Notes under the pieces: model-generated | Told to the model about the DNA's origin: nothing | Databases searched by the model: none | The model's input: only the letters and a program-made list of their open reading frames with translations | Shown here: one piece after another, positions 1,494-63,861 of the stretch | Layout of the letters: each line of letters begins with the position of its first letter | Numbering within the stretch: the first letter of the stretch is position 1 | Program-made: the position numbers and the translations under genes | Origin: Rhizophagus irregularis | Lineage: Eukaryota > Glomeromycota > Glomeromycetes > Glomerales > Glomeraceae | DNA length: 64,000 nt | NCBI RefSeq assembly: GCF_026210795.1 | Contig: NC_089433.1 | Span: forward strand, 4,365,001 to 4,429,000 | Direction of reading: 5' to 3'

Positions 1494-1510
1494 CACTAGT
1501 CGAAAAAGGA
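1494..1510 (+). repeat. Left terminal inverted repeat of the CACTA element
   Basis: CACTAGTCGAAAAAGGA, an exact reverse complement of 5766-5782. Confidence 0.85.
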
Positions 1511-2074
1511 ATATTTGGCCTTAGTAAAATTCGGCCTATATTCGACTAAAATTAAAAATTCGACCTTAATTAGCAATGATCTACGATTAGACATTGGTCG
1601 AATAACCAACCATGCTGGTCGAATAGCCATGTCACGCATTACGCGTATCAAAAGTTTAAAAAAGAATCTTATGCATTCTTTTTTAAACTTTTATTCCTTC
1701 TTTTCCTCGTCCTTTGGCTCTATAGGCGCGGAAAAAAACAAAAAAAAATTATTTTATTTTCTTTTTAAAAATTTTAATGTGGCCCTTTCCCTTTTCGTAG
1801 TAATTCTATGGGAATACTGGTCGAAACCACGCACCGGACTTTGGATAATAAGGTAAATGGGAAGGGAAGTCGTTTTTTTTACTTTAGAACCGGTTTTTTT
1901 TACTTTAGAAACGTTTTAACGTTTCTTTTTTTTCTTTTTCTTGCAGGTATTGCCGGATGAAACGAGCTTCGTGATAATAAAAAAACTAAGATTCGTAAGT
2001 AGAATCTTAGTAGTTCTTTTTAATATTATGGAACAGTTACTAACCGTTCTTGTTTTTTTTTATAGGTTTCGGGA

Positions 2075-2250
2075 AAACGAAGGGAAAGGGTAAAACGAAG
2101 GGAAAAGGGTAAGACGAAGGGAAAAGAGTAAAACGAAGGGAAAGGGTAAGACAAAGGGGAAAGGGTAAGACGAAGGGGAAAGGGTAAGACGAAGGGGAAA
2201 GGGTAAGACGAAGGGGAAAGAGAAAATGAAAGGAAAGGGTAAAACAAAAG
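2075..2250 (+). repeat. Purine-rich minisatellite inside one exon-like core
   Basis: About eight copies of a roughly 20-bp unit resembling GAAGGGGAAAGGGTAAGAC make this the one long exon-like core (231 nt) of the array. The opposite strand shows a Pro/Phe/Ser-rich open frame that is only a product of the repeat. Confidence 0.8.
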
Positions 2251-2669
2251 GGAAAGGGAAAGTGGGGACGGAAAAAGGAGTACTTTTTTAAGATTCGTAA
2301 GTATTATATTACGAATCTTAAATTTTTTTTTTCTTTTTTATTATTATGGAACGGTTTACTAACCATTCCTTTCTTTTTTTATAGGTTCGGGTGGACTTCC
2401 GACGAATGGAAAACCAAGATTCGTAAGTAAGTACGAATCTTGATTTAATTTTTTTTCTTTTTTTTAAAAAATATTACGAACGGTTACTAATAACCGTTCT
2501 TTTCTATTTTTTAGGTTTCGGATGGGCTTCCGAAGAAGGAAAACCAAGAAACCAAGATTCGTAAGTAAGTACGAATCTTGGTTTAATTTTTTTTTCTTTT
2601 TTTAAAAAAATATTACGAATGGTTACTAATAACCGTTTTTTTCTATTTTTTAGGTTTCGGGTGGGCTTC

Positions 2670-3031
2670 CACAGGTCGAAATTAGTTAAATAGGGTATCA
2701 ATAGGTTATCAATAGGTTATCAATCGGCTATCAATAGGCTACCCTATTGGTAGCCTATTGAACTTACGCCATAATCCGTCACCAATCGGGCAGGCTGATT
2801 GTTAGCCAATTAATAACTTATTGATAACCTATTAGTATCCTATTGGTATTTTTATCAAATTGGTTATCAATAAGGTATTAATAGGTTATCAATAGGTTAT
2901 AATCAGCCTGCCCGATTGGTGACGGATTATGGCGCAAGTTCAATAGGCTACCAATAGGGTAGCCTATTGATAGCCGATTGATAACCTATTGATAACCTAT
3001 TGATACCCTATTTAACTAATTTCGACCTGTA
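2670..3031. mobile_element. 362-bp fold-back MITE with CACAG ends
   Basis: The two halves are a near-perfect inverted repeat starting CACAGGTCGAAATTAG and rich in CTATTGATAACCTATTG motifs. The outermost base on the right is changed (A for G). A 3-bp duplication ttc flanks it (2667-2669 and 3032-3034). The CACAGGTCGAAA terminus and the 3-bp duplication match the 17-kb CACTA transposon at 19563-36686, so this is very likely a deletion derivative moved by that family. It interrupts an exon-like core of array A. Confidence 0.85.
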
Positions 3032-3797
3032 TTCGATCTTCGGAAAAAGTGAAACCAAGATTCGTAAGTAACTACGAATCTTGGTTTCACTTTTTTTTGT
3101 TTTTTTTTAATATATGAACGGTTTACTAACCGTTCTTTCTTTTTTTTAGGATCTGGTGGCTTCCGAAGTATAGAAAAACCAAGTTTCGTAAGTATGAAAC
3201 TTGGTTTATTTTTATTTATTTTTTAATTTAATATGAACGGTTACTAACCGTTCTTTTTTTACTTTTTTTTTAGGTTCGGCCGTTCGGGTGGGCTTCTGAA
3301 GTATAGAAACTCCAAAGATTCGTAAGTACGAATTCTTTGGAGTTTTTTTTTTATATTTTTAATATAAACGGTTAATACTAACCGTTATTTTTTATTTTTT
3401 TTTTAGGTTCGGCTCTCGGGTGACTTTTGAAAAATGAAAAAAACCAAGTTTCGTAAGTTCGTACGAAACTTGGTTATTTTTTTTGTTTATTTTTAATATT
3501 ATAAACGGTTATTAATAACCGTTCTTTTTCTTTTTTTTAGGATCGGATGTTCCGAAGGACAGGAAAATTCCAAGATTCGTAAGAATCTTGGATTTTTTTA
3601 TTTTTTTAAAAAAATATTACGAACGGTTACTAATAACCGTTCTTTTATTTTTTATAGATTCGGGTGGGCTTCTGTGTTCCGAAGAACGGGAAAATTCCAA
3701 AGATTTATAAGAATCTTGGATTTTTTTTTATTTTTTTAAAAAAATATTACGAACGGTTACTAATAACCGTTCTTTTCTATTTTCTAGGATCTGGCGG

Positions 3798-4467
3798 TGT
3801 AACCCGAGAAATCAGGATAATCACGTGAACGGATGAATAGAAGACCGAATGGAACAAGGATAAATAATTAGCTGAAGGATAAATAATTAGCCGATAAAAT
3901 AATATTTATAGTTTAGTTTAGTTTAGTCACGAGATAGTCATATGATAATACATCTTTATTTTCTTATTGTTCTTAAATTTTTATTAGTAGAAAAGTTAGA
4001 AATGGTAGAAATAATTTTCTTAAAATGTATAAATATAGGTGGGATTCGTTAGGAATTCCGCAGTCAGTTTTGACTCAAATTTAATAAAATAAATATTAAT
4101 TATTAAAAGTTATCTTGAATATGCTCATTGTACGCTTGAGAATTAATTAATATTATTATTAAGTCCAGAAAAGTAAAGAAAAGGGAATTATTCTCGTTTT
4201 GTTGTATGAAATATAATAAGAAGATAGGAGAACTCTCGCAGTTTATAAGAAATGAAGTGGTAATATTTGAAAGAATAAATATTACAGGAAGCATAATATT
4301 TTGGGAATATTATGAATAAGTGGTAGTATTGAGAATAAATACTACGGACAAATGAGAAAGGAAGCGAGAAGTTAAAGGAAAAATAAAATCTAAACCAAGC
4401 AAAGTAACGAGAAATAAAGTTAAATGAGAAAGATGTGTTTATCCACGGGTGGCAGACATGGGTGACA
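3798..4467 (+). mobile_element. Solo LTR, family 2
   Basis: A 670-bp sequence starting TGTAACCCGAG and ending GGGTGACA, flanked by a 4-bp duplication gcgg (3794-3797 and 4468-4471). A TATAAATA box near 4030 and an AATAAA near 4085 set the plus orientation. The same sequence occurs inverted at 51352-52019. No internal retrotransposon genes of this family are in the window. It interrupts an exon-like core of array A. Confidence 0.9.
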
Positions 4468-5765
4468 GCGGACTTCTGAAGAAAGGAAAATCAAGAAACC
4501 AAGATTCGTAAGTAAGTACGAATCTTGGTTTAATTTTTTTGTTTTTTTTTAATATATGAACAGTTCTAACCGTTCTTTTCTTTTTTTTTAGGATCTGGCG
4601 GGCTTCCGAAGAACGGAAAACCAAGAAACCAAGATTCGTAAGTAAGTACGAATCTTGGTTCTTTTTTTTGTTTTTTTTTAATATATGAACGGTTTACTAA
4701 TAACCGTTCTTTTCTTTTTTTTAGGATCGGGTGGGCTTCCGAAAAATGAAAACCCAAAGATTCGTAAGTACGAGTACAAATCTTTAATTTTTTTTTATTT
4801 ATTATTATTACGAATGGTTTACTAACCATTCTTTCTTTTTTTAATAGGTTCGGGTGGGCTTCCGAAGAACGAAAACCAAAAGATAAAGATTCGTAAGTAC
4901 GAATCTTTATATATATTTTTTTTTTATCATTTTGGAACGGTTTACTAACCGTTCCTTTCTTTTTTTATAGGTTCGGGCGGGCTTTTGTGTGGAAAAACCA
5001 AGATTCGTAAGTACGAATCTTGGTTTATTTTTTTTTGATTTTTTTTTTTAATATTAATGAACGGTTACTAATAACCGTTCTTTCTTTTTTTTTAGGCTTC
5101 GGATTGGCTTCTGATCTTTGGAAAAGTGGAACCAAGATTCGTAAATACGAATCTTGGTTTATTTTTTTTGATTTTTTTTTTAATATTATTATGAACGGTT
5201 ACTAATAACCATTCTTTTTAGGTCTCGGGTGTCTCGGATGTCTTCCGAAGAACGGAAAAAACCAAAGATTCGTAAGTAAGTACGAATCTTGGTTTTTTTT
5301 CTTATTTTTTTTTAATATTATGAACGGTTACTAACCGTTCTTCTCTTTTTTTTATAGGTTCGGGTGGATTGCTAAAGAATAATCAAAGATTCGTATATAC
5401 GAATACATGAATCATGTAATTGTGGAATTGTATTTGAATTAGCAATATTTTTTGTAAATTAGATAGATGCAATAATAATAATATAATTATAAAGTATTTA
5501 AGCATTAATAAATACATTTATTTAATAAATTTGATAAAAAAAATCAAAATAAATTCATAAATAAATAGGTTGTTATTAGACTATAATTCGGCTTAAAGTT
5601 TTAAGGTCGAATATTGGTCAATTTAAACCTAAATAATGGTCGAATAATTAGTCCGAATTTGGGATGATTGGCACCCTAAATGCGCCCAAAAATTTGACCT
5701 CAATTTGACACAGGTTAGACCATTATTCGACCTATATTCGACCTGGTCAAATTTAGGCCGAATTG

Positions 5766-5782
5766 TCCTTTTTCGACTAGTG
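5766..5782 (-). repeat. Right terminal inverted repeat of the CACTA element
   Basis: TCCTTTTTCGACTAGTG, an exact reverse complement of 1494-1510. It is followed by tga, close to the taa that precedes the left end. Confidence 0.85.
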
Positions 5783-5960: not shown

Positions 5961-8900
5961 TTTCTTTTTTTATTTTAGTAATATCAGCAACTGTAACCTG
6001 TGTGATATTTCTTGCTCTTCTTCCAATAGTTGTATAACTTTCTGTTAAAAAAATTTCTTGATTTGCTATTGTTTGTAATCTCTTAATTCCAATATCATAC
6101 ACAATAATTAATTGATTAACTCCATTATCATTTAAATTGTTACAGAATTCAAATACTGGATTTTTAAGAGGATTTAAAGATTCAAAAGCATTTATCAATA
6201 AGTGTGCGAGCTCCCGCCAAATCTTTTCCTTTCGAGATTGAACATTACGTGGTCAGGAACTTTGAACAGAATCTCCAATGTAATCACAAATCAGCATTTC
6301 TGTTAGTTCCTTTTCTAGTTGAGTAGCTTTTATTCTTAATTTCAACTCTTCCCCATCTGCCAGAATTCTTGTTACATTTTGTTTTACAAATTTTACTCCA
6401 AATGTTTCTAGTGCTTCGTCATATGCAAAAAAATGTCCAGGATTTGTTAAATTAATGGATGGTGCTGTACGAAGCATTTTACGAAGTAGAGGATTATTTT
6501 CTATGCAATGTATATGATACGTTACAGATCTAGCATAATTTATTTGATTTACCGGTGTTACCCCTAGTCACGTGTAGAGTTACAACTTACTGCGCCAGAA
6601 GATTATGTGGAAAATTAGGATCTACTGTGCCCAACTGTGCCAAGCCGACCTAGCCGCAGCCTACTTAGCCTATTATTTCTATTATATTTATTATATTAAT
6701 TATATTTAATATAATCGATATAATTATTTTATTTATTATATTTATTATATTAGTTATATTTATTATATTAGTTATATCTATTATATTTATTATATCTTTA
6801 TATGTAGTAACTTTTATATAAATAACGTTGGTATTTTCCCTCATTATAAGTTTAGTTCCTTCAGTTCGAATTAGTTTACCTTTAGTTCCTTAATTCTTAT
6901 TCTTGTAATTATAAAGTTCTATAATAAAGTATAACCTTTTACACTATAAACGAACTCCCTATATTAAGCGTGTCTTGTTTGATTGGATTTCAGTCATAGT
7001 TAAACGTACTTAATCTTCCTGACTGCAAATCATAGTTAATCTATTCAACGTACCGAATCAGTTAACACCGGCAATAGGAAATAAAGGTGAAAAAGCTTTT
7101 AAACTTTCATGTTGTAAATCAAATATTCCCCATCTAATACCAAACCAATGTGCACGCCAATAACTAGCCCATTGAAAATATAAATACCAAACTTTTACAC
7201 AATTATTTTCTTCTTTTAAAATATTATCTAATGTCTGTTTTTTCTTTTTTTACATATATATGAATTGCTATTCCTACGGAAATCCAAATCAATTCCAATA
7301 CTCTTGAAGTTGCTCTGAAATCTACACCTTTCTCTAATTTATCTAGAAATCGTACACCTAATATTCCTGCCATATTGAATATTCTGTAACCAGAAAAAAT
7401 TGTAATTAATGCCATCATCATATCCTTATTGGTATGCCATTGTCCAAGGATCATTTTTGTTTTTTGATTTGTTTTACAATAACTAATACCTCATCTAAAA
7501 ATAGCTTCATCCGCAACTACATTAATATATTCATTATTTTCCATACCAATTTCATTTTTATACATTTCTAGACATTTATGCACAGCGGAATCACTTGATG
7601 GTAGATCTCCAGCATCAAGAATTATAACATTAGGAGGCGGAAGATTAAAACTAACTTCAAAATGTGTCATAATTTGATTACATATATCATCTTCATTAAA
7701 ATCTGAACGATAATTAGGAGTGAAATTTTCATTAAACGTAAGTAATTGTTCAAAAACTGAATTAAAAATATTAAATGTTTGTTGTGAAAAATTATTTTGC
7801 CCAAAAAGTTTTTGCTTATTTTCGTCTTGTATTTCAATAATTTCAGGTAATTCATTAGGTAGTTGGTATTGAAAGAGCATCCGTAATGTAGCGTGTGAAT
7901 TTCCTCTAACAGCATCAAAAATGTTTCCATAACCAAATGTAGTTTCTTTAAAATCCACATTATCAATAATACCAAGATTCCAAATATTCTTTTCATGGCA
8001 AATTCGATCAGTTGGATCTACTAAGAGAGCACGAATTTTTTTCAAATTTCGTTCATGTCTTTGAGAGTGGCTTGTAATATTAACAACTTCTAAAATTCCC
8101 TGCAATGATGACAAAAGTTTTGGTTTTCGGCAAAGACTTGTCATTGTTCGAGGTAACCAAATTTTCCATCCTTTAAATGCAATGTTTAAAATTATTGAAA
8201 TAAAAAATGTGGTTTGTTTAGTAATTTTTTCATAATTTAAAGGTTTTAATGGTTTTTTACGATATTTTCTTTGTCTATCTATAATTTTTTTTTTGTTTCA
8301 TATAAAGTTTTTAAAAGACCATCATAAAATTGTACTAAACATGAAGGAAATATAGAATGATATTCTTCTATAGAAGTAGGTGATTCAAGTAATTTTTTGT
8401 GAATTTTTAATTCATTTTTCGCGAGTATTATTGAATGTGCTAATGCTTCTCCAAATTCAAAAAAATGTTTTGACGTAAAATTCTTAGGATTTAATTTTTT
8501 ATCAAAATTGTAATTAAATTTGACTAAAATAAGAATAATAAGAATTATAAATAAAGAAGGTACTTCATTTTTTATATTTTGTACTGATAGTAGCATTGAT
8601 GATGTAGTCTCAGATTTTTCTTGAGTATTAATAATACATAAAATAGGAGCTAAATGTGCTAAAATTTTTTCTTAAAATGCTAAATTATCAGAATTAGCAA
8701 TATTAAGAATCCAATATCCAATTACTTCTAATGCCTTTTTGGTATCGTTTTTATGATGTGACAGGTTATCACAATTTGGATCTTTTTTTATACCTTATCC
8801 AACACGTTGATAAATATGCCCACCCTTTTCTTCATAACAATTCATACATATATATCGTGCCTGTTTACTCGAATTTGTTGGAATTACAAAAGAATGGTAT

Positions 8901-18470: not shown

Positions 18471-18913
18471 AGTAGTATATAAATCCCAGTTCTGGCTCAC
18501 TTTTCTCGGAGTCCAATCCTGGTTACCTTTTTCTTGCTACCAACTCATTGCTCCCCCACCGGCTGTGGGTCCAATTCTAGTCACCTTTTTCTTGCTACTC
18601 CCATTACTCTCACACCGGCTGTGGGTCCAATCCTGACTACCTTTTTATATTTTTTACCTACTTATATCCTACTTATCTCATAATCTAAACCGTTTATTAA
18701 TATTTTCACCTACTTATTTCATAATCTAAATCATTTATTAATATTTTCACCTACTTACCCCAACCGAACAAGAAATAGGATTTCAAAGCCAACGGAGCCA
18801 AAAAAGGTAAGGAAATATTAACCCATCCAGGAAACCAGCCATGGGGTCAATAGAGCGGAATAGCAAGGCAAGCAATTTCTCTTATACCGAGAAAAAATGT
18901 AATTGAATAAAAG
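18471..18913 (+). repeat. Left terminal inverted repeat of the Maverick
   Basis: Starts AGTAGTATATAAATCCCAG and mirrors 57520-57963 almost base for base. It contains two copies of a CCGGCTGTGGGTCCAAT-type repeat and ends in the shared promoter-like motif. The target duplication TTTGTT precedes it. Confidence 0.92.
18891..18913 (+). promoter_or_regulatory. Shared Maverick upstream motif, copy 1
   Basis: A 23-bp block with core AATGTAATTGAATAAAAG at the inner edge of the left inverted repeat. A TATATAAAAG box and then GTTTACAAG lie just before the ATG at 18938. The block is identical at 56805-56827 and 57520-57542. Confidence 0.65.
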
Positions 18914-24656: not shown

Positions 24657-27600
24657 TCACAAATGAAACTGCCTATTTATTGGGATTACAGCATTATATG
24701 TGATAGGATTCTTTTTGCCAATTACAAATTCACCAGATACAAAGCGACTATATAGGTAATGAATTGGAATTAAACAATCTCGCTCTATCTCATAAAATTC
24801 ATTTCGCCAAAGTTCAATATTTGAGCTTTTTTCATCACCATCAATACTTGTATAAAATCGGGTTTTCTGGTTTGGCGCCGGTTTATACCATTTAACAAAT
24901 ACTAATCGATGTGTTTTAAGTTCACCCGAAATTCTCACAGTATGTTCAAAATAATACTGTACCTGACCTGGAAATAAGTCGGTCGTTTCATTGTTTTGGA
25001 TAAATTTCGCCAAAACATTCACATTTTTCAGGTATCGGGGTGCCATTGCCGATCTAAACACTTCTGCTGAGATCCTAACCCGCCCAAATTGATCAACCAT
25101 ATTTGGCACAACTATTGCATCTCTTGAACTGGTTGATGTTGACTCAGCAATTGTTACAAATTGCAAGTCGTAAGCAATATTATAATATTCGGTTAGGATT
25201 TGATAAATATCATCAGGCAAGGCAACCCGATTTTTACATGGCGTAAGCATTTCTCCAGGAAATGGTTCGCTACTGACAATCGTTTCATCAACTTCTTGGA
25301 AGAATACCTTTCTAAATTGATACAGCTCAGTGTAATTAAAATTATCGTAAGCTGCCAAACTTCTGGAAGTTGATCGTGGTTGAATTAATTTTAAAGCTTC
25401 AACAAGCTTAACATTATTTGATTGAACGGATACAAGGTTATCAAGTCTCCAATTCCGCATTATAATTCGTAAAAGTTTGGGTTCAATTTGACGATTACTA
25501 TTGGGAAAAGAGCCTATTGATATATTATTTAATAAATTATTAGCAAGCTTAAACGATTAAACAGTTCACAAAATACCTACTGAGGATACCGTTCATTCTT
25601 TCAAAGGAAAAACACCAGAAAGAATATAATGGACCATAATCCTGGCAACAATCGGCAATATGAAGATACAAATGGAGGTTTGGGGTTATTCTTTCCGGAC
25701 CATAATTTTCTTCAATTAACGTTGCAACTTTGAGCAAACGTTCGTGAGCTTCGTTCAATATGTCACAGTCAATAATTCGATAAACTAGCAGAGAACAAGC
25801 TCTAACGAAATTCCCCAAAATTTGTCGATCTGGTTCAGCGAGCAAATCCCACATCAACGGGATAGCATAAATTAGAACAAACGTTTTCCATTGGTCGGCC
25901 GTAAATCCGGAAAATCCTTCTCCAGTTGCGATTTTATTTGGAATACGCCCCAAATCCGTGGGTATTTGTATGTATTTTGCTCGCTTTTCCATTTTTTCTA
26001 GATCTTGTTTCGTGATCTTGTTGCCATCGATCCATAATTTTTTAATTATCCAATGGGCTATTCCGAGGAACAAACAGTGCATTGGATCTACGACAAGGTA
26101 CCTTATCGGATTAAAATACGGTAATCGAAGCAGTTCGGACCATCTAACATGGGTTGAACTCACATGACGTTTTCTTTCCTCCTCAGATTTACACAGTCTC
26201 CAAAGCTCAGCATTCCGTCGATGTTCATCCAAATCTCTTTCTACAAACCAGTCAACCATATCATCAAAGCCGCCAAAACTTGACTTATTTCCATTTCCAT
26301 TTGAATTTGCAGTTTTATAACACCTATGGCAGCTCACTGATGCTGATATGTGACCGCAGAGCTTCCTCGCCGCAGGAATGTCATTCGAACAGCATATTAA
26401 TGCCAATCGGATATTTTTTTCAGCGGCGGGAATCTCAATCCCATCCCAGAACTCTAATAACTCATCAACAATTGGAGCGAGATAATGGTTAATTTTGTGT
26501 AACTTAACCTCGCTTGGTCCTGGTAGTAGACCAAGCGTCAACATATTTTTTTTTTAAATCTAATTTCACGCGGTAGGTTACAAATAACCCCATAAATAGC
26601 CCCACAGCTGTATACAGATGACTCGAAAGGCTGAAACCAATCGAGATTAATCATAATTCCCAAGTGGGAATCTGCAGTCTCCGGTGTAAAAAATGGGACG
26701 TCTGAAGTGTCTGGAAAAGTTTTCCAGATTTTACCGTCATAAATATCTGCTAACATACCATTATTTACATCCCGATTGGTCCATTTTCGTAGTTGTTGCT
26801 TGAATTCTGGTCTCTGGTACAAATTGTTTATCTGTATTTTCAAATTCGGCAATGGAAATAACAATTTAGGGCGTCTTTTATTTCCATTACCATGCGGTAC
26901 TTGCACAGTTAATTCTATTCCGCAAAATTTTTCCTTCGGTTTCATTGGAAATTCTATATGCGTACATTTAAATCCTTCATCCGCAACAACATCAGCTATA
27001 TTATATAATGTATTACAGCTCGGACATACTGCGTAAGACATAGATTGGTTGTCGATTCGTAATAACTTAGTCGCAGTGTATAAAGAAGACGGGAAATCTT
27101 TGAATCTTGTCTGATTAGCATCCATTAATACTTGATGAAAAAACTTTATTAAAGAATCTAGTGCAACATCCGGCAAGCAAAATCTTGCTTGATATTTGAA
27201 TATCCATGTTAATATCCAAGAATCTGCAATATTAACATTTGTGTCGGGATATGCAAATTCTGAATCATTTTCGGGCGCAGCAAATTGTTCAACAGGATCA
27301 TCGTCCAAATCCATATTGTCTTCTGGAGAAATGTCACCTTCATATTCATATTCATTAATCAGTTCATTGCTTTCCTTATTGGTTTCCGGTTCCCGAAACT
27401 GGTCTTGTCTACGCCTTTTTTGAGGGACAAAACCGGCAAAATCTGATTCATAATTATTATTAAATGATGTTGACTCTTCTTGTCCGGTCATTTCTTTTGA
27501 TCTTGATGATCCTTCTACGATCGGACTATAATAGACGGTATGTGCTGGCTTAATTCGATTGTTTCCGGGTAAAAAAGGGACAAATCCGGAAATGCTAGAC

Positions 27601-38775: not shown

Positions 38776-39309
38776 TGTTACCCCTAGTTACGTGTAGAGT
38801 TACAATTTACTACGCCAGAAAATCATGTGGAAAATTAGGATCTACTGTGCCTAACTGTGCCAAGCCGACCTAGCCGCAGCCTACTTAGCCTATTATTTCT
38901 ATTATATTTATTATATTAATTATATTTAATATAATCGATATAATTATTTTATTTATTATATTTAATTTATTTATTATATTTATTATATTAGTTATATTTC
39001 TTATATTTATTATATCTATTATATTTATTATATCTTTATATGTAGTAACTTTTATATAAATAACGTTGGTATTTTCCTTCGTTATAAAAAAAAAAGTTCC
39101 TTCAGTTCGAATTAGTTAACCTTAGTTCCTATTAGTTCTTATTCTTGTAATTATAAAGTTCTATAATAAAGTATAACCTTTTACACTATAAACGAACTCC
39201 CTACTTTAAGCGTGTCTTGTTTGATTGGATTCCAGTCATAGTTAAATGTACTTAATCTCCCTGACTGCAAATCATAGTTAATCTATTCAACGTACCGAAT
39301 CGGTTAACA
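38776..39309 (+). repeat. 5' LTR
   Basis: 534 bp, TGTTACCCC to GGTTAACA, with a TATATAAATAACG box and AATAAAG. The centre is a variable array of TTATATTTA units. Confidence 0.95.
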
Positions 39310-39311
39310 AG

Positions 39312-39329
39312 TGGTGATTCCTGCCAGGT
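39312..39329 (+). other. Primer-binding site candidate
   Basis: TGGTGATTCCTGCCAGGT starts with TGG (complement of the tRNA CCA end) two bases after the 5' LTR. The tRNA cannot be named from memory. Confidence 0.5.
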
Positions 39330-39356
39330 AAAAGGCTATACTGTGAATTAACAATT

Positions 39357-39565
39357 GATTTCTTTTCTCAGACGAACTTGAGAATACTTGCAGATGTACT
39401 TGCAGACGTAATTTCTTTTCTCAGACGAACTTGAGAATACTTGCAGACGAACTTGCAGACGTAATTTCTTTTCTCAGACGAACTTGAGAATACTTGCAGA
39501 CGCACTTGCAAACAAAATTTACTTTCTCAGACGTACTTGAGATATTAGCAGACGTACTTGCAACA
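39357..39565 (+). repeat. Leader tandem repeats of about 60 bp
   Basis: Four copies of a unit with TTTCTTTTCTCAGACGAACT and TGAGAATACTTGCAGACG between the primer-binding site and Gag. They look like a packaging or leader region. Confidence 0.85.
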
Positions 39566-39584
39566 ATTTGAATTTTGAAATTGA

Positions 39585-42500
39585 ATGCCCTTTTACAATT
39601 TATCTAAAGCAGAATTAAAATCACATCAAAGAAAACATCGTAGAGGAAGAGTGATCAACCAAAAAGAAGTTTACTGTATTCAGTGTTATCCAACAGATTC
39701 TATCCCAGCTGACAATATCCCTGACGGATTTGAGAAATTTTGGCTCTGGATTTCTATTCAGTACACAGCAAAACAATATACTGGAGCAACAGTAGCCGCT
39801 TTTAAAGTATTAAAAACTGAATTCTTTATAACTACACAACTTAATACACTTGTCGGTATAACTACTAAGATCCTACAAAGTATAAAGTTTCGACAAATAA
39901 ATACTCTTTTATTAGAATTATCCTTTTATTTACATAAATTATTTGAATTAACAAACGGATTCAAGAGTTTACCAACTGATACTCAAGTAACCAACGCATA
40001 CCAAATTTTTCATAATACACCAGTAAATAATAACGCTAACATGGATCAAGGACAAATGAGAGATCTTATGAAGTTAGTCTGGGGAGCTGACCCAACTGAT
40101 AATAATAACCCCAGAAATGTTGGAAACCTCTTGGAAAATACTTTGAATAATAATACAAATGCTATTACTACTGCTTTACAAAATAATCTTACCGCTATTA
40201 ATGCTCTTACAACTGCCAACCAAAATCGTACTACATCTAAAGTTGTGGATGTTCCCTTTTTCTATGGACGTGATGATGAGGATCCATATGAATGGTGTCG
40301 ACTCTTTGAAGCTGCTTTTGATGCTAATGGATGGCCAGATAATCGAAAAATTGCTTTAGCCGCTGGATTTCTTAAGGAAGCTGCCCGAGATTGGTATGAA
40401 GAGGATAGAGGAAATATCAATCAATGGCATATAGATGCCAATGCAAATAACTTTGATACTCGATTTATAAACTACTTTGCAACTGCTGCTCGAAGGAATC
40501 AGTGGACCAGAGAACTGCAAAATATTAAACAAGGAGACAATGAATCGGTAGAAAACTATTCTCAACGATTTAAAAAGTTGTTAAATAAAGCTACCCAAGG
40601 GGAAGCTTTAGCCGCAAGATACCAAATTAACTACTATATTAATGGTCTCAAGTCCTTCTTAGTTGGACAGGTAGTAATCGGGAATGCTGATACTTTGGAA
40701 GCAACTATTACCTGAGCTAAGTTAGTAGAATTAGGTGTAAATACTACTCTTTTAACTACAATACCTGTAACTACTAGTACAACAGAACCTATTCCAACTA
40801 CTACTACTACTACTGTTAAACCAACTCCACAAGTAGATAAAATGGAAGCATTAACAAAACAAATGCAACAACTCGCTCTTAATTATGCAAATCTGTCATC
40901 AGTTTTAATGGTTCAACAAAGCACTCCTCGAAATCCTAGACCTAGACCTAATAATAATAATAATCAAAATCGTCAAAATGGTCAAGCCTCTACTCAGAAT
41001 TCCTTCAATCCAAATATTACTTGTTTCAGATGTGGAAATGTGGGACATATTTCCAGAAACTGCCAAATGGGAAGAAATACCAATAATGGAAATATTAATG
41101 GTAATAATAATAATAATAATCGTCCTCGCCAAAGAGCATCAGTTACATCTATTAATTATGCAGATGATGAAGCAGAAATTTACTATGATGAATATGAGGA
41201 TGAATATGAGGAAGAATGGGAAGAAGAAGACGAATATGAAGCATATATTACAACTCATTCTAGATCTGTTCCATATGAGATATCCTCCCCTAGAGGAAGA
41301 AGAACAAGATTTTCAGAATCTCGAAAGGAAGACCAATTACGTACCCAACCTATTCCTCCAGTAACTCCTTCTACACCAATGGATATGGATGCTACAGCAG
41401 AATCTTCAACAAAAAGAAAAGTAAGAACCAAAATGGTCCCTGCACCTATTGAAAACGTCAATGAATTTGACATAGCTAAATATATTAGTGACCTTCCTTG
41501 TGGTCTATCTATCGGTCAAGCAACAGCTCAACTTCCTGTTTACAGGAAAGGATTAATTCAAAGTATGAGGAGAAAGCGTGAAAAGATTGATAACAATAAT
41601 TATATTGGAGAAAGTTACTATGGAGACTCCAACTCAGAAGAAGAAACTCCCACTACCGCTGCTAAATGTGAATTCCATATTAATCAACAGCCAGTTATTG
41701 CAGTAATTGATAGTGGAGCTGCAGTTAGTATTATGACAACTGCCATGATGAAAACTTTGAAATTAACTATCGATGGACCTTCAGAATATGTAATTAAAAC
41801 CGCCAATGGAACTAGAGTTAGATCATTAGGAGAAATCCAAAACTTACCCCTAAAAGTCAGAAATTTAATTATTAAAACTAATGTTCAAATCATAGAATCA
41901 AGCGATAGTGTTTTTATTCTAGAAAACAATTGGATGAGAAAGGTAAATGCTGCTCTTGACTGGGACAAGAAGACACTAACCATCAGATACAATGGACGAT
42001 CTACAACAGTCCCTGTGATTTTTACTCTTCCAAAACCTATTAAAATGAAGCAATCATTTGAGTATGATGACGAAGAGGAATATGAGTCTGAAGAGTTAGA
42101 AGAAGCCCAAATCTATATGTCTGATTTTTCTGGTTATTCAACAGAAGAATCCCTTGAATTTAACCCATGGGAAAATGAAGTATCTCCTGCCCACCAAAAT
42201 AATGAAGACGAAGAATTGGAAGAATCAAATCCTGCCATTTATTTAGCTCAAGCAGAAGTATATAGTGGAGAAAAAGTCAATCCAGACTTACATTTAGGAC
42301 CATTAGATTACCACCAACAAAGCCAATTTCAACAACTCTTGAGTGACTATGCAGATATTTGTGCTAAAAGCCAAACGGAAATTGGAAAAACAAATGTAAT
42401 TAAGCACAAAATTATTACAAAAGATGCCAGATGTAATCCTAAATATAGAGAATTTTTACAAGGAGAAATCACAAGAATGGAAAGTCAAGGACTTATAAGA

Positions 42501-44556
42501 AAATCAGCTAGCCCTTGGGCTTCACCTGTAGTAATTGTTGATAAAAAAGGAGGAGAAAAACGTTTATGCATAGACTATCAAAAATTGAATGCTGTCACCA
42601 AAGCAGATGCTTACCCATTACCTTGAATTGATGATATGCTTGAATCTTTTAGTAATGCAACATGGTTTACCACATTAGATTTAGCCAGTGGTTATTGGCA
42701 AGTAGCTATGGATCCAGCAGATGTGGAGAAAACTGCCTTCATTACTCCCTTTGGATTATATGAATTTCTAGTAATGCCCTTTGGTTTAGCTTATGCGTGG
42801 AACTTTTCAACGATTAATGAATAGAATACTCCAGGAGTATTTAGGGAAATTTGTAGCATTATATTTAGATGATGTAATCATTTACTCAAAGGGAAACTTG
42901 GAGCAACACTTGGATCATCTTAGACAAGTATTTGAAACTTTTAGACGAGCAAATTTGAAGATTAAACTAAAGAAATGTTATTTTTGCCTTGGAAATATTC
43001 ATTTCCTAGAACATGTAGTAGGACGAGAAGGTATCCGACCTGATCCAGAAAAAATTGAGAAAATTAGAACTTTTCCAGTCCCAACAAACCTAACGCAACT
43101 TTGCTCAGCATTGGGCTTATTCTCCTACTATCGAAAGTTCATCAAAGATTTCTCAAAAATAGCCAAACCAATGTTATTACTTTTAAAGAAGGAAACCCCT
43201 TTCTATTGGACTGAAAAACAGCAAATTGCATTTGATTATTTGAAGGAAAGATTAGTTAAATCTCTGATCTTAACATACCCTGACTTTGAACAACCCTTCA
43301 TTATTCATACAGACGCATCTGGAACTGGACTTGGTGCTGTGTTATCACAAATAAGAGAGGATGGAAAAGAACATGTAGTCGCTTATGCCAGCAGATCTTT
43401 GAATAAAGCTGAGTGCAATTACCCTATAACTGACCAGGAATGTCTTGCAATAGTGTGGGCTATCAAACATTTCCAACACTACTTAGGATTGAAACCTTTC
43501 ACAATTGTTACCGACCACTCTGCTCTAAAATGGTTAAAGACATCTAAAATCCCAAAAGGTCGCCGTGCGAGATGGGTCATGGACCTTCAACAGTACGACT
43601 TTAATATTAAGCATCGAGCGGGAAAAACAAATGCAAATGCAAATGCATTATCCAGAATGTTTGAAGAAGATAACCAAATTTTTAGTTGTTTTATGATTTC
43701 TATCGAAAAAGAAAGACAAACTAATGAAAATGAAAGCTCTACTCCAGTACATGAAGAGTATGATGCAGATTCAGAAGATGATTATACTGATAGACCTGCT
43801 CAAAGAGCTATCGATTTGTTAAATCGTTGTGATAATTTATTATACGATATGCAAAGCTACATTGAAGAACGATCAGGAAATAGTTCTCCTATGAATATTG
43901 TTTCAGGAATTCGATATGACTTTGACAACCCCAATGGACCTCATCCAGAAGATTGTATTTGTAAAGTTTGTCAACCTCCTCCAGCCCGTTCACCATCACC
44001 ATATAGTTGTTGTAACGAAATTATTTGTCAGTGTAATGAAGATAACTATTCAATTGATACAGAAGAATATAATAATTTGTGGGAAAGACAAATTAATGGA
44101 GATGCATTCTCTGATTATTCAGAAGAAAAACAGATTAATATTGAAGAACATATCGCCTGGACCATGTGTGGTATGGACCGTCAAGCTCTAGAAAATATGT
44201 ATTTGGAAAATATCAAAATTAAACAAGTAATCGCCGGTCAACCAATCAATCATGGTGGAAGTCGTTGTACCATAGAATGTGATACAGAAAATCATCACGT
44301 GCACACATACTGTACGATGTGCAAGAAGAATTTATTTTATGGAACTATTATACACGATTGTATCATTGGATTCACTTTAGGAAAAATTAGGCCAGATATG
44401 AATCCCAAATTCCTTATTACTAATCAATGGTGGAAAGAACCTCAAGCGGTACAACTTGAAAATAATATCAATTATCTTAAATATATCGAACGATTAATGA
44501 ATGATTTACCAGTTTACAAAGTATCTTTGGAACCTTTCATTGCCAATTTGGACTAA
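39585..44556 (+). pseudogene. Gag-Pol of the Ty3-type element (Gag, protease, RT, RNase H, Cys/His insert)
   Basis: Gag begins MPFYNLSKAELKSHQRKHRR, with a capsid-like part (FLKEAARDWYEEDRGNINQW) and zinc knuckle [14 protein letters not shown] (41029-41070). The protease motif is [11 protein letters not shown] (41704-41736), with an intact DSG. Reverse transcriptase has [30 protein letters not shown] and FVALYLDDVIIYSK. RNase H follows (IIHTDASGTGLGAVLS, TDHSALKWL). After it comes an unusual Cys/His-rich region (about 43930-44370). Damage: TGA at 40713-40715, TGA at 42624-42626 where CGA (Arg) is expected, and a frameshift between the 42636 and 42793 frames near 42800. Gag and Pol are otherwise in one frame. 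Confidence 0.92.
43930..44370 (+). other. Cys/His-rich domain between RNase H and integrase
   Basis: Within Pol, two clusters stand out: EDCICKVCQPPPARSPSPY with CCNEIICQCNED, and CTIECDTENHHVHTYCTMCK followed by HDC. The C-x3-C ... H-x-H ... C-x2-C ... HDC spacing looks like a zinc-binding fold. It does not belong to the standard Ty3 Pol order and lies in a 900-bp extension before integrase. Confidence 0.7.
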
Positions 44557-45913
44557 AAGTCCACCTCTTTTACATATTATAATTAACAAAGTATCAAAGG
44601 GTGAAAGCGAAAGTGTCCGCATCGTGACGAGACAGCCTAAATTTTCAAAAATGGATATCGAACATTACAATAACATATATAATTATTTAAAATATAATCA
44701 ATTACCTTCTACATTAAATAACCAACAACAACAACAAATTCAAAAACAATCAGTATATTTTATTATCAAAAATAATTTTATTTATAAAAAGGATAAAAAG
44801 AAACAAAATAATTTATTACGAGTAATTAGAAGACATGAATTGGAACCAGTTCTTTTTATGTTCCACAATGATCCTACTGCTGCGCATTTTTCAGTTGATA
44901 CAATGTTTGACAAAATTCAATCAAGATATTATTGGCCACAAATGTACAATGACATCAGATCTTATGTCATGTCATGTGACTTTTGCCAACGAAAAGGAAA
45001 ACAAAAGACAAAGTTACCTTTACATCCTATTCCAGTAGAAAGTCCTTTTCATCAAATAGGAATAGATTTTGTAGGACCTTTACCTATAACTACAAATGGA
45101 AACAAATATATAATTACAGCAATGGATTATTTAACAAAATGGCCAGAAGCACGACCTGTAAAAGAAGCTACTGCAGAACAAGCTGCACTTTTTATCTATG
45201 AAGAAATAATTTGTCGACATGGATGTCCAGCAAAAATATTATCAGACCAAGGAACTCATTTTAGAAATCAAATAATTGAAAAATTAATGGAAAAATTTCA
45301 GATAAAACATTTATTTTCAATGCCATACCACCCTCAAACAAATGGACTTGTAGAAAGATTTAATCGTACTTTATTAGAATCTTTAGCAAAATTATCAACA
45401 GATCATATTGATAATTGGGATAATTATATTGCACCAATTTTATTTGCTTATCGTACTACAAAACATTCGACTACAAAAATCGCACCTTTCTTTTTATTAT
45501 ATGGACGAGATGCTAAACTACCAACTGATTCATTAGAAAATAATGGAACTCCAACTTTAATAAATCACATAGAAAATTTAGTTGACCAACTACCTCAAGA
45601 AATTGAAATAGCTAAGACAAATATTGAATTATCTCAACAAAAACAAAAAGAACGACATGATAGAAAATTACGCCATCAAATAAAATTTTCTATTGGAGAC
45701 AAAGTCTTATATTATGACGCAGCAAAAAAAAAGCAATGGACTGGAAAACTAAATCCAAAATGGAAAGGACCATACTATATTCATCAAGTTGGAGAAAAAG
45801 AAGCGTACAAATTACGAACTATAGATGGAAAAGTCTTACGAACTCCTGTAAATGGAAGTTTATTAAAATTGTATCACGATCGACAAAATTGGGAACCAAT
45901 AATTGTAGTATAA
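44501..45913 (+). pseudogene. Integrase part of Pol, in a separate frame
   Basis: The frame overlaps the end of the Pol frame by 56 bp and is shifted by one base, so Pol is either frameshifted by mutation or read by a shift. It has the N-terminal HHCC zinc site (MFHNDPTAAHF ... MSCDFCQRKG). The catalytic residues are IGIDFVGPLP (Asp), LSDQGTHF (Asp) and NGLVERFNR (Glu), with 35 residues between the second Asp and Glu. A C-terminal region follows (GDKVLYYD and KLNPKWKGPYYIHQVGEKEA). No stop breaks this part. It inserts the cDNA copy into the nuclear genome. Confidence 0.88.
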
Positions 45914-46146
45914 TTAGTCACGATTAAGATCTACAACTCGTGGCAAATAGTTAATTTTACTTAGTACGATTTACAAGTGTTACAGACGATTAAAATGAAT
46001 TTGCGACTCAATGCCCCAGAAAAATTTATTAAAAAGATGAAAAATTTTAGAAATTTTATTGTGAAAAACTTAGTGAAAAATTTATTACAAAAATATATTA
46101 GAAAATTATAGGGAAAATCAGAAAGAAGAAATTTTTTTTTTTTATT
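45914..46146. other. Short spacer after integrase
   Basis: AT-rich, between the convergent integrase and antisense genes. It contains a 10-base T run. Confidence 0.5.
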
Positions 46147-46840
46147 TAATCAACTTCTTCATAACTAGGATTAGAAGTAGAACCATTTGACAAAATTATA
46201 TTACATTCCTCAAAAAGCATTTGTTTTGCTTCTTCAAATGCTGCTTCAGCACGACCTCTACTACTCTGCAAGCTTATATTATGTGAAATTAATTGACAAA
46301 CTCCTTCTTCCAGACCTTCTATTGTTCGCTGTTGGTCGATGATTAACTTTTGGGCCTCCCATAATTTCTGCTGCTCTCCAGCCCAGATTTTATTATGAAA
46401 CTCCGTCTCGAGACTCTTATGGGCCCCATCTCCAGCAAATTTTCAAACTTCTCTTCAAGTTCTTCTTTTTCTTCTTTAGCTTTTGCAAGATCCTCTATTA
46501 GAAATAAAAATGGAGATTTATGGTCACTCCAAGTTAGTTAAAAACTAAGTGGATAAATCGATAGCACAAAAGAGTTCTACAGGTAGAGGCCTTTCAAGAC
46601 TTAAATATCCTAGAAGTACAAGTACCCCGTCTACAAGCTGCGCAAAATCAACCTTTCAAGAACTGGATATAAGGTCGAAACCCTGTCTACAGGCAATCAT
46701 ACCGTTCAAGAGACATCTTAAGAACCTTGCGTACAATACCCACCTTCAAGTTGACGAACTTTCATCTTACGCGCTTCTTTAAGCCTTTGAAATCTTGCTC
46801 GAGATTTCTGACGTGAGGTATTAGATCGATGACAAGTCAT
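46147..46840 (-). pseudogene. Antisense bZIP-like coiled-coil gene inside the LTR element
   Basis: Exon 1 (46840-46744) begins MTCHRSNTSRQKSRARFQRL and ends RQLE. It is joined by a 249-nt intron with the branch site TTAACTAAC and acceptor TAATAG to exon 2 (46494-46147), which continues in phase EDLAKAKEEKEELEEKFENL. A basic stretch followed by leucine heptads is the layout of a bZIP, although the usual Asn of the basic signature is not in place. One base in a GGGG run near 46432 shifts the frame to HKSLETEFHNKIWAGEQQKL and on to the end NPSYEEVD. The gene lies opposite in direction to Gag-Pol. It could be an antisense regulator such as retroelements sometimes carry. This is inference. Confidence 0.5.
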
Positions 46841-46844
46841 GATA

Positions 46845-47341
46845 GATAGATTAGTAGATAGATAGATAGGTAGACAAAGAAAATTTTGGAAAAATTTTGG
46901 GATAATATCAAAGATTTTACGTGAAGATAAGAAAAAGAGAAAGGGAAAAATTTAGACTTTATATAAGAAATAGGCACGACGCGAAAACACGTTAAGATCA
47001 GGCACAACAAAAATATTACGAAAAATCACGACGTGAAAAATTATGAAAAATGTGGACGCGTAAGACACGCAAAAATCACTTTTGAAAATATTTCTGGAAA
47101 GTTCTAGAGAAAAATGTGAAGATATTTTTAGAACAAGGAAAAATAATCTTAAAATAGAAAAACGCGGTTAAATAATTTAAGCGCTAAAAATAACTGATAG
47201 ATGTGGTGAAACATGATAAGTAATACAAAAACCTCATCAGAAATAAACAAAAATCTAATCAGCAAAATGATCTACAGGAATTTAAAACATATATATAGAT
47301 GTGGATAAGTTGACAAAAGAGTTTAAACCGCTTGAAGAAAA
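46845..47341. other. Non-coding stretch of the LTR element
   Basis: Begins with a GATAGATAGATAGG microsatellite (46845-46872). The rest has no supported frame and may be the promoter of the antisense gene. Confidence 0.5.
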
Positions 47342-47755
47342 ATGGATTTTTCAGAAATATTAGAAGATATTCAACAAACAACTTCAGAGGAAATTAATTT
47401 TCCACCACCGCCCTACATGGAAGAAGAAGATTTCCAAGTTAAATTCTCTGCAACTCTGAGAAGTGTAACGAAATCAATACGACTAAAAGATACACAATTG
47501 GCGATAATTAACTCTTTCTATTTAGGACAACTCCTAGACCAACTACCAACTCCTAGCGAACGATTGAAATACAAGCATAAAATGTCATTACATTATGCAA
47601 CAATTGTAGAAAAAACTTTTGATATTTTTGAGTTTTTTCCAGAACAAATCTTAAGGACGAAAAAACTAGACGTCCAAGTTATTAGAAAAATTACCAGACC
47701 TCAGATAAGGAGACTTAGAAATAATTTATTGATTTTCGCAGGAGCTGCAAATTAA
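47342..47755 (+). CDS. ORF3 of the LTR element, with a PPPPY motif
   Basis: A 137-residue intact frame just before the polypurine tract, starting MDFSEILEDIQQTTSEEINF. Residues 20-25 read FPPPPYMEEE, a PPxY-type motif like those that recruit WW-domain ubiquitin ligases and act as late-budding motifs in retroviral Gag. The rest is helical and ends basic (VIRKITRPQIRRLRNNLLIF). It has no match I can name. It is intact while Gag-Pol is broken, perhaps because it is short. Confidence 0.55.
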   Translation: MDFSEILEDIQQTTSEEINFPPPPYMEEEDFQVKFSATLRSVTKSIRLKDTQLAIINSFYLGQLLDQLPTPSERLKYKHKMSLHYATIVEKTFDIFEFFPEQILRTKKLDVQVIRKITRPQIRRLRNNLLIFAGAAN

Positions 47756-47766
47756 GAGGAGGAACC
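47754..47766 (+). other. Polypurine tract
   Basis: AAGAGGAGGAACC directly before the 3' LTR, the usual plus-strand primer site. Confidence 0.8.
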
Positions 47767-48319
47767 TGTTACCCCTAGTCACGTGTAGAGTTACAATTTA
47801 CTACGCCAGAAGATCATGTGGAAAATTAGGATCTACTGTGCCTAACTGTGCTAAGCCGACCTAGCCGCAGCCTACTTAGCCTATTATTTCTATTATATTT
47901 ATTATATTAATTATATTTAATATAATCGATATAATTATTTTATTTATTATATTTAATTTATTTATTATATTTATTATATTAGTTATATTTATTATATTAG
48001 TTATATTTCTTATATTTATTATATCTATTATATTTATTATATCTTTATATGTAGTAACTTTTATATAAATAACGTTGGTATTTTCCTTCGTTATAAAAAA
48101 AAAAAGTTCCTTCAGTTCGAATTAGTTAACCTTAGTTCCTATTAGTTCTTATTCTTGTAATTATAAAGTTCTATAATAAAGTATAACCTTTTACACTATA
48201 AACGAACTCCCTACTTTAAGCGTGTCTTGTTTGATTGGATTCCAGTCATAGTTAAACGTACTTAATCTCCCTGACTGCAAATCATAGTTAATCTATTCAA
48301 CGTACCAAATCGGTTAACA
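47767..48319 (+). repeat. 3' LTR
   Basis: 553 bp, matching the 5' LTR with about two extra TTATATTTA-type units. Confidence 0.95.
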
Positions 48320-51184: not shown

Positions 51185-52890
51185 AGATTTTTATAGACCC
51201 TACATTTAATAAACAAATCGAACAAAATTATATCCTTCAACAAATCTATTACCATCCATGTGGATATTATCGTACTCCTGAAAAACTTTGGGCTAAAGTG
51301 CAAGCTGAGGGCCATGATTTTAACATATCTGATATTACAGAGTGGTTGCATTGTCACCCACGTCTGCCACCCGTGGATAAACACTTCTTTCTCATTTAAC
51401 TTTATTTCTCGTTACTTTGCTTGGTTTAGATTTTATTTTTCTTTTAACTTCTCGCTTTTCTTCTCATACATCCGTAGTATTTATTCTCAATACTACTGCT
51501 CATTCATAATATTCCCAAAATATTATGCTGCCTGTAATATTTATTCTTTCAAATATTACCATCTTATTTCTTATAAACTGCGAGAGTTCTCCTAACTTCT
51601 TATATTTCATACAATAAAATGAGAATAACTCCTTTTACTTTACTTTTCTGGACTTAATAATAATATTAATTAATTCTCAAGCATACAATGAGCATATTCA
51701 AGATAACTTTTAATAATTAATATTTATTTTATTAAATTTGAGTCAAAACTGACTGCAGAATTCCTAACGAATCCCACCTATATTTATACATTTTTAAGAA
51801 AATTATTTCTACTATTTCTAACTTTTCTACTAATAAAAATTTAAGAACAATAAGAAAATAAAGATGTATTATCATATGACTATCTCGTGACTAAACTAAA
51901 CTAAACTATAAATATTATTTTATCAGTTAATTATTTATCCATCAGTTAATTATTTATCCTTGTTCTATTTGGTCTTTTATCCATCTGCTCACGTGATTAT
52001 CCTGATTTCTCGGGTTACAGCATAAACAGGCTATATGGCAAATACACTCACCTATACCCAAGTATGTTCCACAGGTTTCTTTTAATAAGATTACTCGACC
52101 AAATATGTATCATCAAGCAGATATCTTATATATGCCCTATGATACTGTAGATAGAAAGCTGTATAAATACTGTCTGAATATTGTAAATGTTGCTAGCCGA
52201 TATAAAGCTTAAGTACCTCTAGAAGATCGCAGCTCTGCACATATTGCTAAGGCATTTAAAAAGATTTATAGCAAAGCAGACTGCCCGCTTATTTGGCCAA
52301 GAGTTTTACAAGTAGATGGGGGATCAGAATTTAAGGATGAAGTTATCCGATTAATGGATGAAAAAGGTGTACGTATTCAGGTGGGTACTACTCATAAGAG
52401 TCAGGCTATTGTTGAACGGTATAATCGAACTTTAGCAGAGAGACTTTTCAAAATACAGGATGCAAAGGAACTCCTTACAGAAGGTGTGAATACTGCCTGG
52501 GTTAAGAACCTTTCTGATATTGTGAATGAGCTAAATAATTCTAATACTCGTCTGCTAGGTATGTCTCCAGTTGAGGCAATCCAGAAAGATCAAGTGTATG
52601 CACTACCTTCAAAAATTTGGAAGGATAGACCTGTAAGTGCAGAAGAAATACGTTTACCAGCTGGTTCTCTTGTAAGATACTTACTTGATAACTCAGATTA
52701 CCGAGGTAGGAGACGTGCAACTGATCCAATATGGTCTACTAAAGTTTATACAATTGAATCTTCCACAGTTGTTGATGGGCAGCCGGTTATATATAGGTTA
52801 TCTGATGGACCTAAAAAAATATTTACTCGAGAAGAATTATTAGTTGTGCCATCTGATACTATGCTGCCTCCTACTCATATATTATATTAA
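51160..52890 (+). pseudogene. Maverick integrase, interrupted by a solo LTR
   Basis: The frame starts MYLPLPVSQIFIDPTFNKQI and reads to ITEWLH at 51351. The solo LTR (51352-52019) intervenes, and the frame resumes KQAIWQIHSPIPKYVPQVSF after the GCAT duplication. Catalytic residues are ADILYMPYD (first Asp), LQVDGGSEF (second Asp) and AIVERYNRTLAERL (Glu). The C-terminal part (GSLVRYLLDNSDYRGRRRAT ... VIYRLSDGPKKIFTREELLV) is the chromodomain-like tail usual in Polinton integrases. A TAA at about 52210 interrupts ASRYKA-VPLEDR. Its start overlaps the head of the divergent polyprotein gene by up to 25 bp. Its 3' end converges on the DNA polymerase gene with a 4-bp overlap. Confidence 0.9.
51352..52019 (-). 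mobile_element. Solo LTR, family 2 (second copy)
   Basis: 668 bp, the reverse complement of the copy at 3798-4467 with a low level of differences. Flanking duplication GCAT at 51348-51351 and 52020-52023. It interrupts the N-terminal part of the Maverick integrase. Confidence 0.95.
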
Positions 52891-57519: not shown

Positions 57520-57542
57520 CTTTTATTCAATTACATTTTTTC
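57520..57542 (-). promoter_or_regulatory. Shared Maverick upstream motif, copy 3 (acidic gene)
   Basis: The same block at the inner edge of the right inverted repeat, about 40 bp upstream of the ATG at 57480. Confidence 0.6.
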
Positions 57543-57963
57543 TCGGTATAAGGGTAATTGCTTACCTTGCTATTCCGCTCTATTGACCCCATGGCTGGTT
57601 TCCTGGATGGGTTAATATTTTCTTACCTTTTTTGGCTCCGTTGGCTTTGAAATCCTATTTCTTGTTCGGTTGGGGGTAAGTAGGTGAAAATATTAATAAA
57701 TGATTTAGATTATGAAATAAGTAGGTGAAAATATTAATAAACGGTTTAGATTATGAGATAAGTAGGATATAAGTAAGTAAAAAATATAAAAAGGTAGTCA
57801 GGATTGGACCCACAGCCGGTGGAAGAGTAATGGGAGTAGCAAGAAAAAGGTGACTAGAATTGGACCCACAGCCGGTGGGAGAGCAATGAGGTGGTAGCAA
57901 GAAAAAGGTAACCAGGATTGGACTCCGAGAAAAGTGAGCCAGAACTGGGATTTATATACTACT
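57520..57963 (-). repeat. Right terminal inverted repeat of the Maverick
   Basis: Reverse complement of 18471-18913 with a few differences, followed by TTTGTT at 57964-57969. Confidence 0.92.
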
Positions 57964-60140: not shown

Positions 60141-60189
60141 AAATAAAAAACCTTCGAAATATCTCAGCAATTTTTTTCAGTAAAAATCT

Positions 60190-63298: not shown

Positions 63299-63301
63299 CT
63301 T

Positions 63302-63855: not shown

Positions 63856-63861
63856 TTCCGT

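Follow-up and report, generated by a model that had tools for sequence, protein, structure and literature searches.

Tandem introns with hairpins over their donor and branch sites in a CACTA-like element of Rhizophagus irregularis

Introduction

Runs of tiny exons are exhibited by the micro-exon genes of schistosomes and by the Bicycle genes of aphids. Artificial hairpins placed over splice signals in yeast, which Goguel reportedly described in 1993, are said to be inhibitory to splicing. To our knowledge, structured splice sites are known just singly or as laboratory constructs. Here, we describe a 64,000-nt stretch of the Rhizophagus irregularis genome, hereafter the window (C5:4365001-4429000, in a genome of 146.7 Mb and 32 contigs), in which the interior of a CACTA-like transposon is filled with tandem introns whose donor and branch sites lie in hairpins (array 1), and in which a second repeat exhibits a comparable array with unrelated arms (array 2).

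Like the arrays, fungal introner-like elements and symmetrical stwintrons (PMC8469720) are families of similar fungal spliceosomal introns with inverted repeats and predicted hairpins. They exhibit one long inverted repeat across the intron ends, and each copy stands alone in a host gene; in contrast, the array introns have separate short hairpins at donor and branch site, the left arm of the donor hairpin belongs to the exon, and these introns follow one another within a repeat. Introners derived from DNA transposons (PMC9860276) likewise tie cut-and-paste transposons, with inverted termini and short duplications, to introns. However, an introner is itself one intron, each copy being a single intron in a host gene, whereas a single element here contains a tandem row of as many as 17 introns and retains its exons. 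The main text of PMC9860276 mentions neither Rhizophagus nor Glomero-. Transposons of the CACTA / CMC-EnSpm type in R. irregularis (PMC8647823, PMC11075540) share their termini and 3-bp target duplication with the elements that hold arrays of the array 1 type. These elements, in contrast, have an intron array as their interior, in which no transposase was recognised; the word 'intron' is absent from the main texts of both papers.

The aptamer of PMC2275289, like the hairpins attributed to Goguel, likewise places splice signals in a stem-loop, but these are laboratory constructs, whereas the arrays are natural, repeated and varied in their arms. Bicycle effectors are named in PMC11333574. Unlike schistosome micro-exon genes and Bicycle genes, the arrays follow neither a conserved frame nor a rule of multiples of three, and they carry hairpins on their splice signals. 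Among the titles and abstract openings listed for the open-licence literature, with subscription papers and preprints outside this scope, we found no description of such arrays and no paper that combines Rhizophagus with micro-exons. As far as seen, the combination of tandem introns in a transposon with separate donor and branch hairpins is not met in the closest known systems.

Structure of array 1

Array 1 occupies positions 1995-5357 of the forward strand and comprises 17 tandem donor-branch-acceptor introns of 71-93 nt. They were found with a scan for consensus signals in which a hairpin was not required, and the array is also delineated by the list of stems and by junction peptides. The signals of U2-type introns are present in order: a donor, a branch consensus, a T-tract and AG. 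The donor begins with GT in 16 of the 17 introns and with AT at position 3707, and overlapping donors (GTAAGTAAGT) are observed inside some hairpin loops. Thirteen of the 16 exons between the introns measure 36-50 nt, and the remaining three measure 231, 410 and 720 nt. The first of these contains a 19-nt repeat. The second contains a foldback insertion at 2671-3030, for which inverted-repeat analysis gave 130-nt arms with 99% complementarity, and the third contains a 670-bp repeat inserted at 3798-4467, a second copy of which lies at 51352-52019 on the reverse strand.

The heptamer TACTAAC occurs 26 times on the two strands of the window, compared with 8.1 expected occurrences and a maximum of 15 in shuffled sequences. 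A detector that makes no assumption about arm sequence found 14 units on the forward strand and eight on the reverse strand of the window, and one and none, respectively, in the reversed sequence. A first-pass annotation made from the sequence had described a tandem micro-exon array with its splice signals placed inside hairpins, and this description is confirmed. Array 2, the two insertions and the overlapping donors were additional to it. The arrangement is unusual, and competing explanations of its mechanism are weighed below.

Hairpins over the donor and branch sites

Perfect stems of at least 6 bp are present at 15 of the 17 donors and at 12 of the 17 branch sites of array 1, and the other sites exhibit stems with mismatches. 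At 4995-5026 (forward strand), for example, 15-bp arms AAACCAAGATTCGTA and TACGAATCTTGGTTT flank an AG, with the GTAAGT donor beginning at 5007, and in the branch hairpin at 5059-5080 (forward strand) the arms GAACGGTTA and TAACCGTTC enclose CTAA. The left arm of the donor hairpin lies in the exon. The T-tract and the AG are outside both hairpins. Loops often include part of GTAAGT or TACTAAC. The donor occupies a variable position in its hairpin, namely the loop, the upper stem or the whole stem; in 14 of the 17 units, folding predicts its G and U to be base-paired. Folding of each unit of array 1 gave z-scores of -1.5 to -8.9 relative to 60 dinucleotide shuffles. A last arm palindrome, ATTCGTATATACGAAT, is found in the stem list at 5389-5404 (forward strand) and has no donor. 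A search of Rfam gave four matches at E <=0.1, all under the gathering score, and hence no known RNA family.

The stems are concentrated on the two signals. We counted 290 perfect stems of at least 8 bp in the array stretches of the window and of the loci used: 152 are centred within 8 nt of a donor and 133 within 8 nt of a branch site (285 of 290), one is exonic, and four lie elsewhere in introns. As these stretches were chosen with a detector that requires hairpins, which favours the counts at donors and branch sites, the informative part is the near absence of stems elsewhere in the same units. Array 1 taken without this selection exhibits a similar placement, except for two 6-bp stems in exons and the foldback insertion. 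Array stretches contain 8.7 stems per kb, compared with 1.5 per kb in the rest of these loci, undetected units included; the density is 0.46 per kb in positions 6001-60000 of the window and 0.04 per kb after block shuffling.

The arms also change together. A compensatory change is observed in the donor hairpin at 3176-3207 (forward strand), which has the arms AAGTTTC and GAAACTT, and another in the branch hairpin at 4812-4831 (forward strand), in which GAATGGTT and AACCATTC enclose TACT; both were identified in the stem list and in the covariation analysis. Over the 17 introns of array 1, 94.4% of the cells are paired, compared with a mean of 88.4 in shuffled alignments, and 13 cells are altered on both sides, compared with 3.2; none of 500 shuffles was as high in either case. 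The units are related, so independent events are fewer than cells. With the register set by the inner GTT/AAC, 240 of 312 cells pair in the branch arms of the second family (shuffles: mean 198, highest 211) and 444 of 608 in branch arms of the array 1 type (shuffles: mean 419, highest 431). At a transversion in the donor arm, the two sides read A-T in 332 cases and T-A in 86 and are mismatched in six, both strands being counted. The end of an exon pairs more fully with the intron of its own unit than with that of a different one (means of 8.01 compared with 6.48, and of 6.99 compared with 6.01, of 9 positions). The arm changes between units noted in the first-pass annotation are present, and in the covariation test that it proposed, covariation exceeds that of shuffled arms.

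A second family with unrelated arms

Array 2 lies on the reverse strand at 60478-62939 and was delineated with the detector, the consensus scan and BLAST. It comprises 19 introns, again found without requiring a hairpin, 18 of which have a donor-stem score of at least 12.5. Its arms, for example TTTCGAAG/CTTCGAAA in a donor hairpin and AACGAACGTT/AACGTTCGTT in a branch hairpin, are unrelated to those of array 1. The repeat that holds it extends approximately from 59991 to 63860 (reverse strand), as judged by the ends common to other copies, and a comparison of these ends revealed no clear terminal inverted repeat. We considered homology between arrays 1 and 2, and rejected it as sensitive BLAST searches gave just short, mostly T-rich matches.

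The genome contains 565 occurrences of the branch palindrome AACGTT-N(0-3)-ACTAACGTT, compared with 16 of its reversed form. Loci L032-L042 exhibit the same layout as array 2 with further arm variants, so the search for genome copies with other arms and the same layout, suggested with the initial description, yielded such copies, including those with the unrelated arms of the array 2 family. A third family, represented by L002, exhibits a clear branch hairpin and a weak donor hairpin. The CACTA array of L015 opens with an intron of the second-family kind; the families of arrays 1 and 2 may therefore share ancestry or have recombined.

Two further structures were observed near arrays of the second family. 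Upstream of array 2, at 62908-63267 (reverse strand), lie tandem repeats that exhibit palindromes resembling a donor (CGGAGGTATGCTTACCTCCG) and an acceptor-like end (TATATTATATAG) but lack the TACTAAC palindrome. In L043, positions 1510-2000 contain more introns, in which a wholly intronic hairpin (AAGTTTCG/CGAAACTT) has the donor GTAAAG at its outer edge.

The CACTA-like host element

Array 1 fills the interior of a 4289-bp CACTA-like element at 1494-5782 (forward strand), with inverted termini CACTAGTCGAAAAAGGA and the flanks TAA/TGA, a 3-bp duplication with one mismatch. Other arrays of this type were taken from 284 genomic matches to GGTTACTAACC (88 for the reversed pattern); loci L009-L028 were chosen from these and are not a random sample, and 17 of the 20 carry at least three units at the default detector thresholds. 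In the window and these loci together, CACTA-type inverted termini with at most one mismatch surround the array in 14 of 21 loci. Where several pairs of termini fitted, the pair with most units was chosen, and then the one with the better duplication. The 3-bp target duplication is exact in 11 of the 14 arrays with paired termini; the inexact ones are those of the window, L018 (TGC/CAT) and L019 (GAT/GCT). The exact terminal 17-mer occurs 44 times in the genome, and its reversed control does not occur.

The tnp2 transposase family PF02992 has 155 matches in the genome. Among the matches and termini listed, none was recognised between array termini, and one lies 134 bp outside the element of L015. 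The host of array 1 is a CACTA-like, probably non-autonomous transposon, and the suggestion of a CACTA element around the array, made with the first description, is thus borne out by the termini and duplications.

Two related observations were made. Another CACTGG terminus with units of the array 1 type begins about 45 bp past the right end of the window (L031 5245-6201, C5). An open reading frame (ORF) at 25552-26544 (reverse strand) has a weak match to PF02992, with 28.5 bits at a cut-off of 28.6.

Splicing in deposited gene models

The array introns are probably real, and their splicing is supported indirectly, through deposited gene models. A query with the peptide of the spliced exons of L010 matched 141 proteins at E <=1, and the 120 listed are all named R. 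irregularis. Among these 120, the 9-residue junction peptides of 12 of the 17 window introns are found, whereas unspliced 9-mers of the window introns are absent; 7-residue junction peptides, for which no control was made, are found for 16 of the 17. Overall, 130 junctions were matched over 357 detected units, which include both strands and some palindromes read backwards. In the second family, 7-residue peptides match for seven of 127 units, few proteins having been retrieved for comparison; junction 7-mers of L043 occur in P0121, P0122, P0124 and P0125, and P0124 skips exons.

The first coding-like exon of the gene models (MGILVETTHRTLDNK) lies at 1809-1853 (forward strand), and its sequence starts P0016, P0026, P0074 and P0076. 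It is followed by an ordinary intron without hairpins, which ends at 1946, and is also present in L030, a copy on C11 that is 98% identical to the 5' part of the window. P0016, whose contig is taken as C11, and isoforms t3, t4 and t6 of RIR_jg29739 start with this exon. We infer that RIR_jg29739 is the C11 copy, part of which was compared. At least three isoforms of it are modelled, which differ in the micro-exons included. AUGUSTUS reports alternative isoforms from evidence. The annotation that gave these isoforms used RNA-Seq intron hints (Maeda 2018), and expressed CMC-EnSpm elements have been reported in R. irregularis in general, rather than for these arrays (PMC8647823, PMC11075540). Autonomous splicing, and a device by which a CACTA element is spliced out of host RNA, had also been put forward in the first-pass annotation: nothing supports the former, the signals being of the ordinary U2 type, and the latter is unsupported, since the gene models retain the array exons and one of them joins such exons to a DDE nuclease domain.

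This model, P0098, joins a DDE_Tnp_4 (HARBI1-like) domain to exons of the array 1 type, possibly by exonization after an insertion or by a prediction error.

Possible roles of the hairpins

We tentatively favour, with somewhat less than even confidence, a reading in which the hairpins of these tandem U2-type introns in R. irregularis repeats mask, in the pre-mRNA, both sites that are read by small nuclear RNAs (snRNAs), and thereby slow or gate splicing. The end of the exon and the start of the intron would fold into one hairpin spanning the 5' splice site, with another covering the branch site. The covered sites would be those read through base pairing by U1/U6 and U2 snRNAs, whereas the T-tract and the AG, which are read by proteins, would remain open. 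If the hairpins form in vivo and inhibit splicing by masking both sites, transcripts could be spliced slowly, partially or conditionally, which could give rise to many isoforms, and the element might draw some gain from this. Masking is favoured because the hairpins cover snRNA-read sites and sequestering such sites inhibits splicing, as observed when a branch site is sequestered by an aptamer (PMC2275289). The variable position of the donor within its hairpin also fits masking better than display. The recurrence of the layout with unrelated arms, the concentration of stems on the two signals, the covariation of the arms, the folding scores, and the junction peptides and modelled isoforms speak for this reading as well. 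A broader proposal is possible but more doubtful, namely a natural class of transposon introns whose two snRNA-read sites have stayed locked in hairpins while the arms were rewired in at least two families unrelated in sequence, so that the element gates how and when the spliceosome acts on its transcripts.

Several results weigh against masking. Many of these introns are removed in the gene models, which would be odd under strong masking. In the window introns, the pairs with both sides altered number five, compared with 2.6 in shuffles, and 21 of 500 shuffles reach five. In today's copies, there is no consistent preference for G-U over A-C mismatches: the counts are 33 and 51, respectively, in one comparison and 21/22, 23/38, 14/13, 37/59, 25/41, 34/44 and 43/27 in seven partly overlapping sets. 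The arm mismatches are strand-symmetric and mostly CpG transitions, which speaks against a role as RNA today. MAFFT and RNAalifold applied to 26 introns of the second family gave a consensus structure with no pairs, because loops of different lengths prevent the arms from aligning. The copies present today resemble DNA under neutral decay, and the earlier suggestion that the hairpins matter lacks support for RNA in these copies, given the inconsistent G-U preference. If hairpins were selected at the RNA level at all, this selection acted in the active lineage.

Two other explanations are serious rivals to masking. In the first, which we consider unlikely, the introns are real and the palindromes arose at the DNA level, either as sites for a dimeric protein of the element or as quasi-palindromes perfected by template switching, for which the partly palindromic splice signals (GTA-AG-TAC and GTTA-C-TAAC) would act as seeds. 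The strand symmetry of the mismatches, the predominance of CpG transitions and the lack of a consistent G-U preference agree with it, as do the CpG present in nearly all hairpin arms and the almost invariable matching of the donor-arm transversion. However, all but five of the 290 perfect stems are centred on a donor or branch site, loops of 0-14 nt are ill-suited to a rigid dimer site, and, as the existing copies may be dead, their decay may say little about the active lineage.

In the second, also improbable in our judgement, the introns are real and the hairpins assist splicing, by shortening the effective intron and keeping each donor with its own branch site. Local intron definition or display in a loop would avoid cross-splicing between near-identical tandem units. 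Each kind of array seen has the two hairpins, always as strictly local structures, and the frequent presence of part of GTAAGT or TACTAAC in the loops is consistent with this role. In contrast, the unfixed position of the donor, the predicted pairing of its G and U in most units, and the skipping of micro-exons in gene models argue against it.

Whether by masking or otherwise, the array hairpins may be a natural device controlling splicing. With natural units numbering in the hundreds and carrying diverse arms, existing RNA data from a single organism could reveal the effect of structure over donor and branch sites. The arrays also raise the question of why a transposon carries rows of introns.

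Coding capacity of the array exons

A further explanation, which we regard as very unlikely, is that the arrays are true protein genes with coding tandem micro-exons, similar to those of schistosomes, in which the hairpins are incidental or regulate isoforms. Annotated proteins exist, and the spliced exons of L010 and L015 form one open frame over their full length (213 and 183 codons, respectively). Among 132 distinct exons, which are related to one another, the length modulo three is 0 in 60, which exceeds one third, 1 in 32 and 2 in 40. However, where micro-exon genes keep to multiples of three and preserve the frame, identical exon types are here read in different phases across copies and isoforms, which makes a coding repeat unlikely. 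Stop triplets are depleted on both strands in arrays of type 1 (140 compared with 362 in shuffled sequences in sense, 85 compared with 258 in antisense), and this composition explains the open frames. Gene models that consist of the array only exhibit no Pfam domain above the cut-off. We take the array exons to be frameless; as they are fed into annotated gene models, they may fill the protein catalogue of the species with frameless hypothetical proteins. It is likewise highly improbable that the gene models reflect errors of prediction and that the arrays remain unspliced in vivo: predictors readily splice such consensus signals, but the same junctions occur in proteins from several annotations, and the annotation with RNA-Seq intron hints yields isoforms.

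Two candidate identities of the encoded proteins were rejected. The SP7-like effector family exhibits a conserved intron ahead of its first repeat, and its repeats carry the motif Y[KR]Rx[AP]x[AP] (PMC11333574); this motif is found in none of the 125 retrieved proteins. A hAT-like identity was considered for the tail of P0017; hmmscan found no Pfam family there, and the P0017 record lists PF27041.

Other repeats in the window

Inverted repeats of 444 bp, 97.7% identical, at 18471-18913 and 57520-57963 bound a 39.5-kb stretch with other repeats. Positions 38776-48319 correspond to a long terminal repeat (LTR) retrotransposon, with same-orientation repeats of about 550 bp at 38776-39309 and 47767-48319 (95.7% identity) and ORFs at 39585-45910 that exhibit gag, protease, reverse transcriptase/RNase H and integrase domains. 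An additional copy of this LTR lies at 6546-7067.

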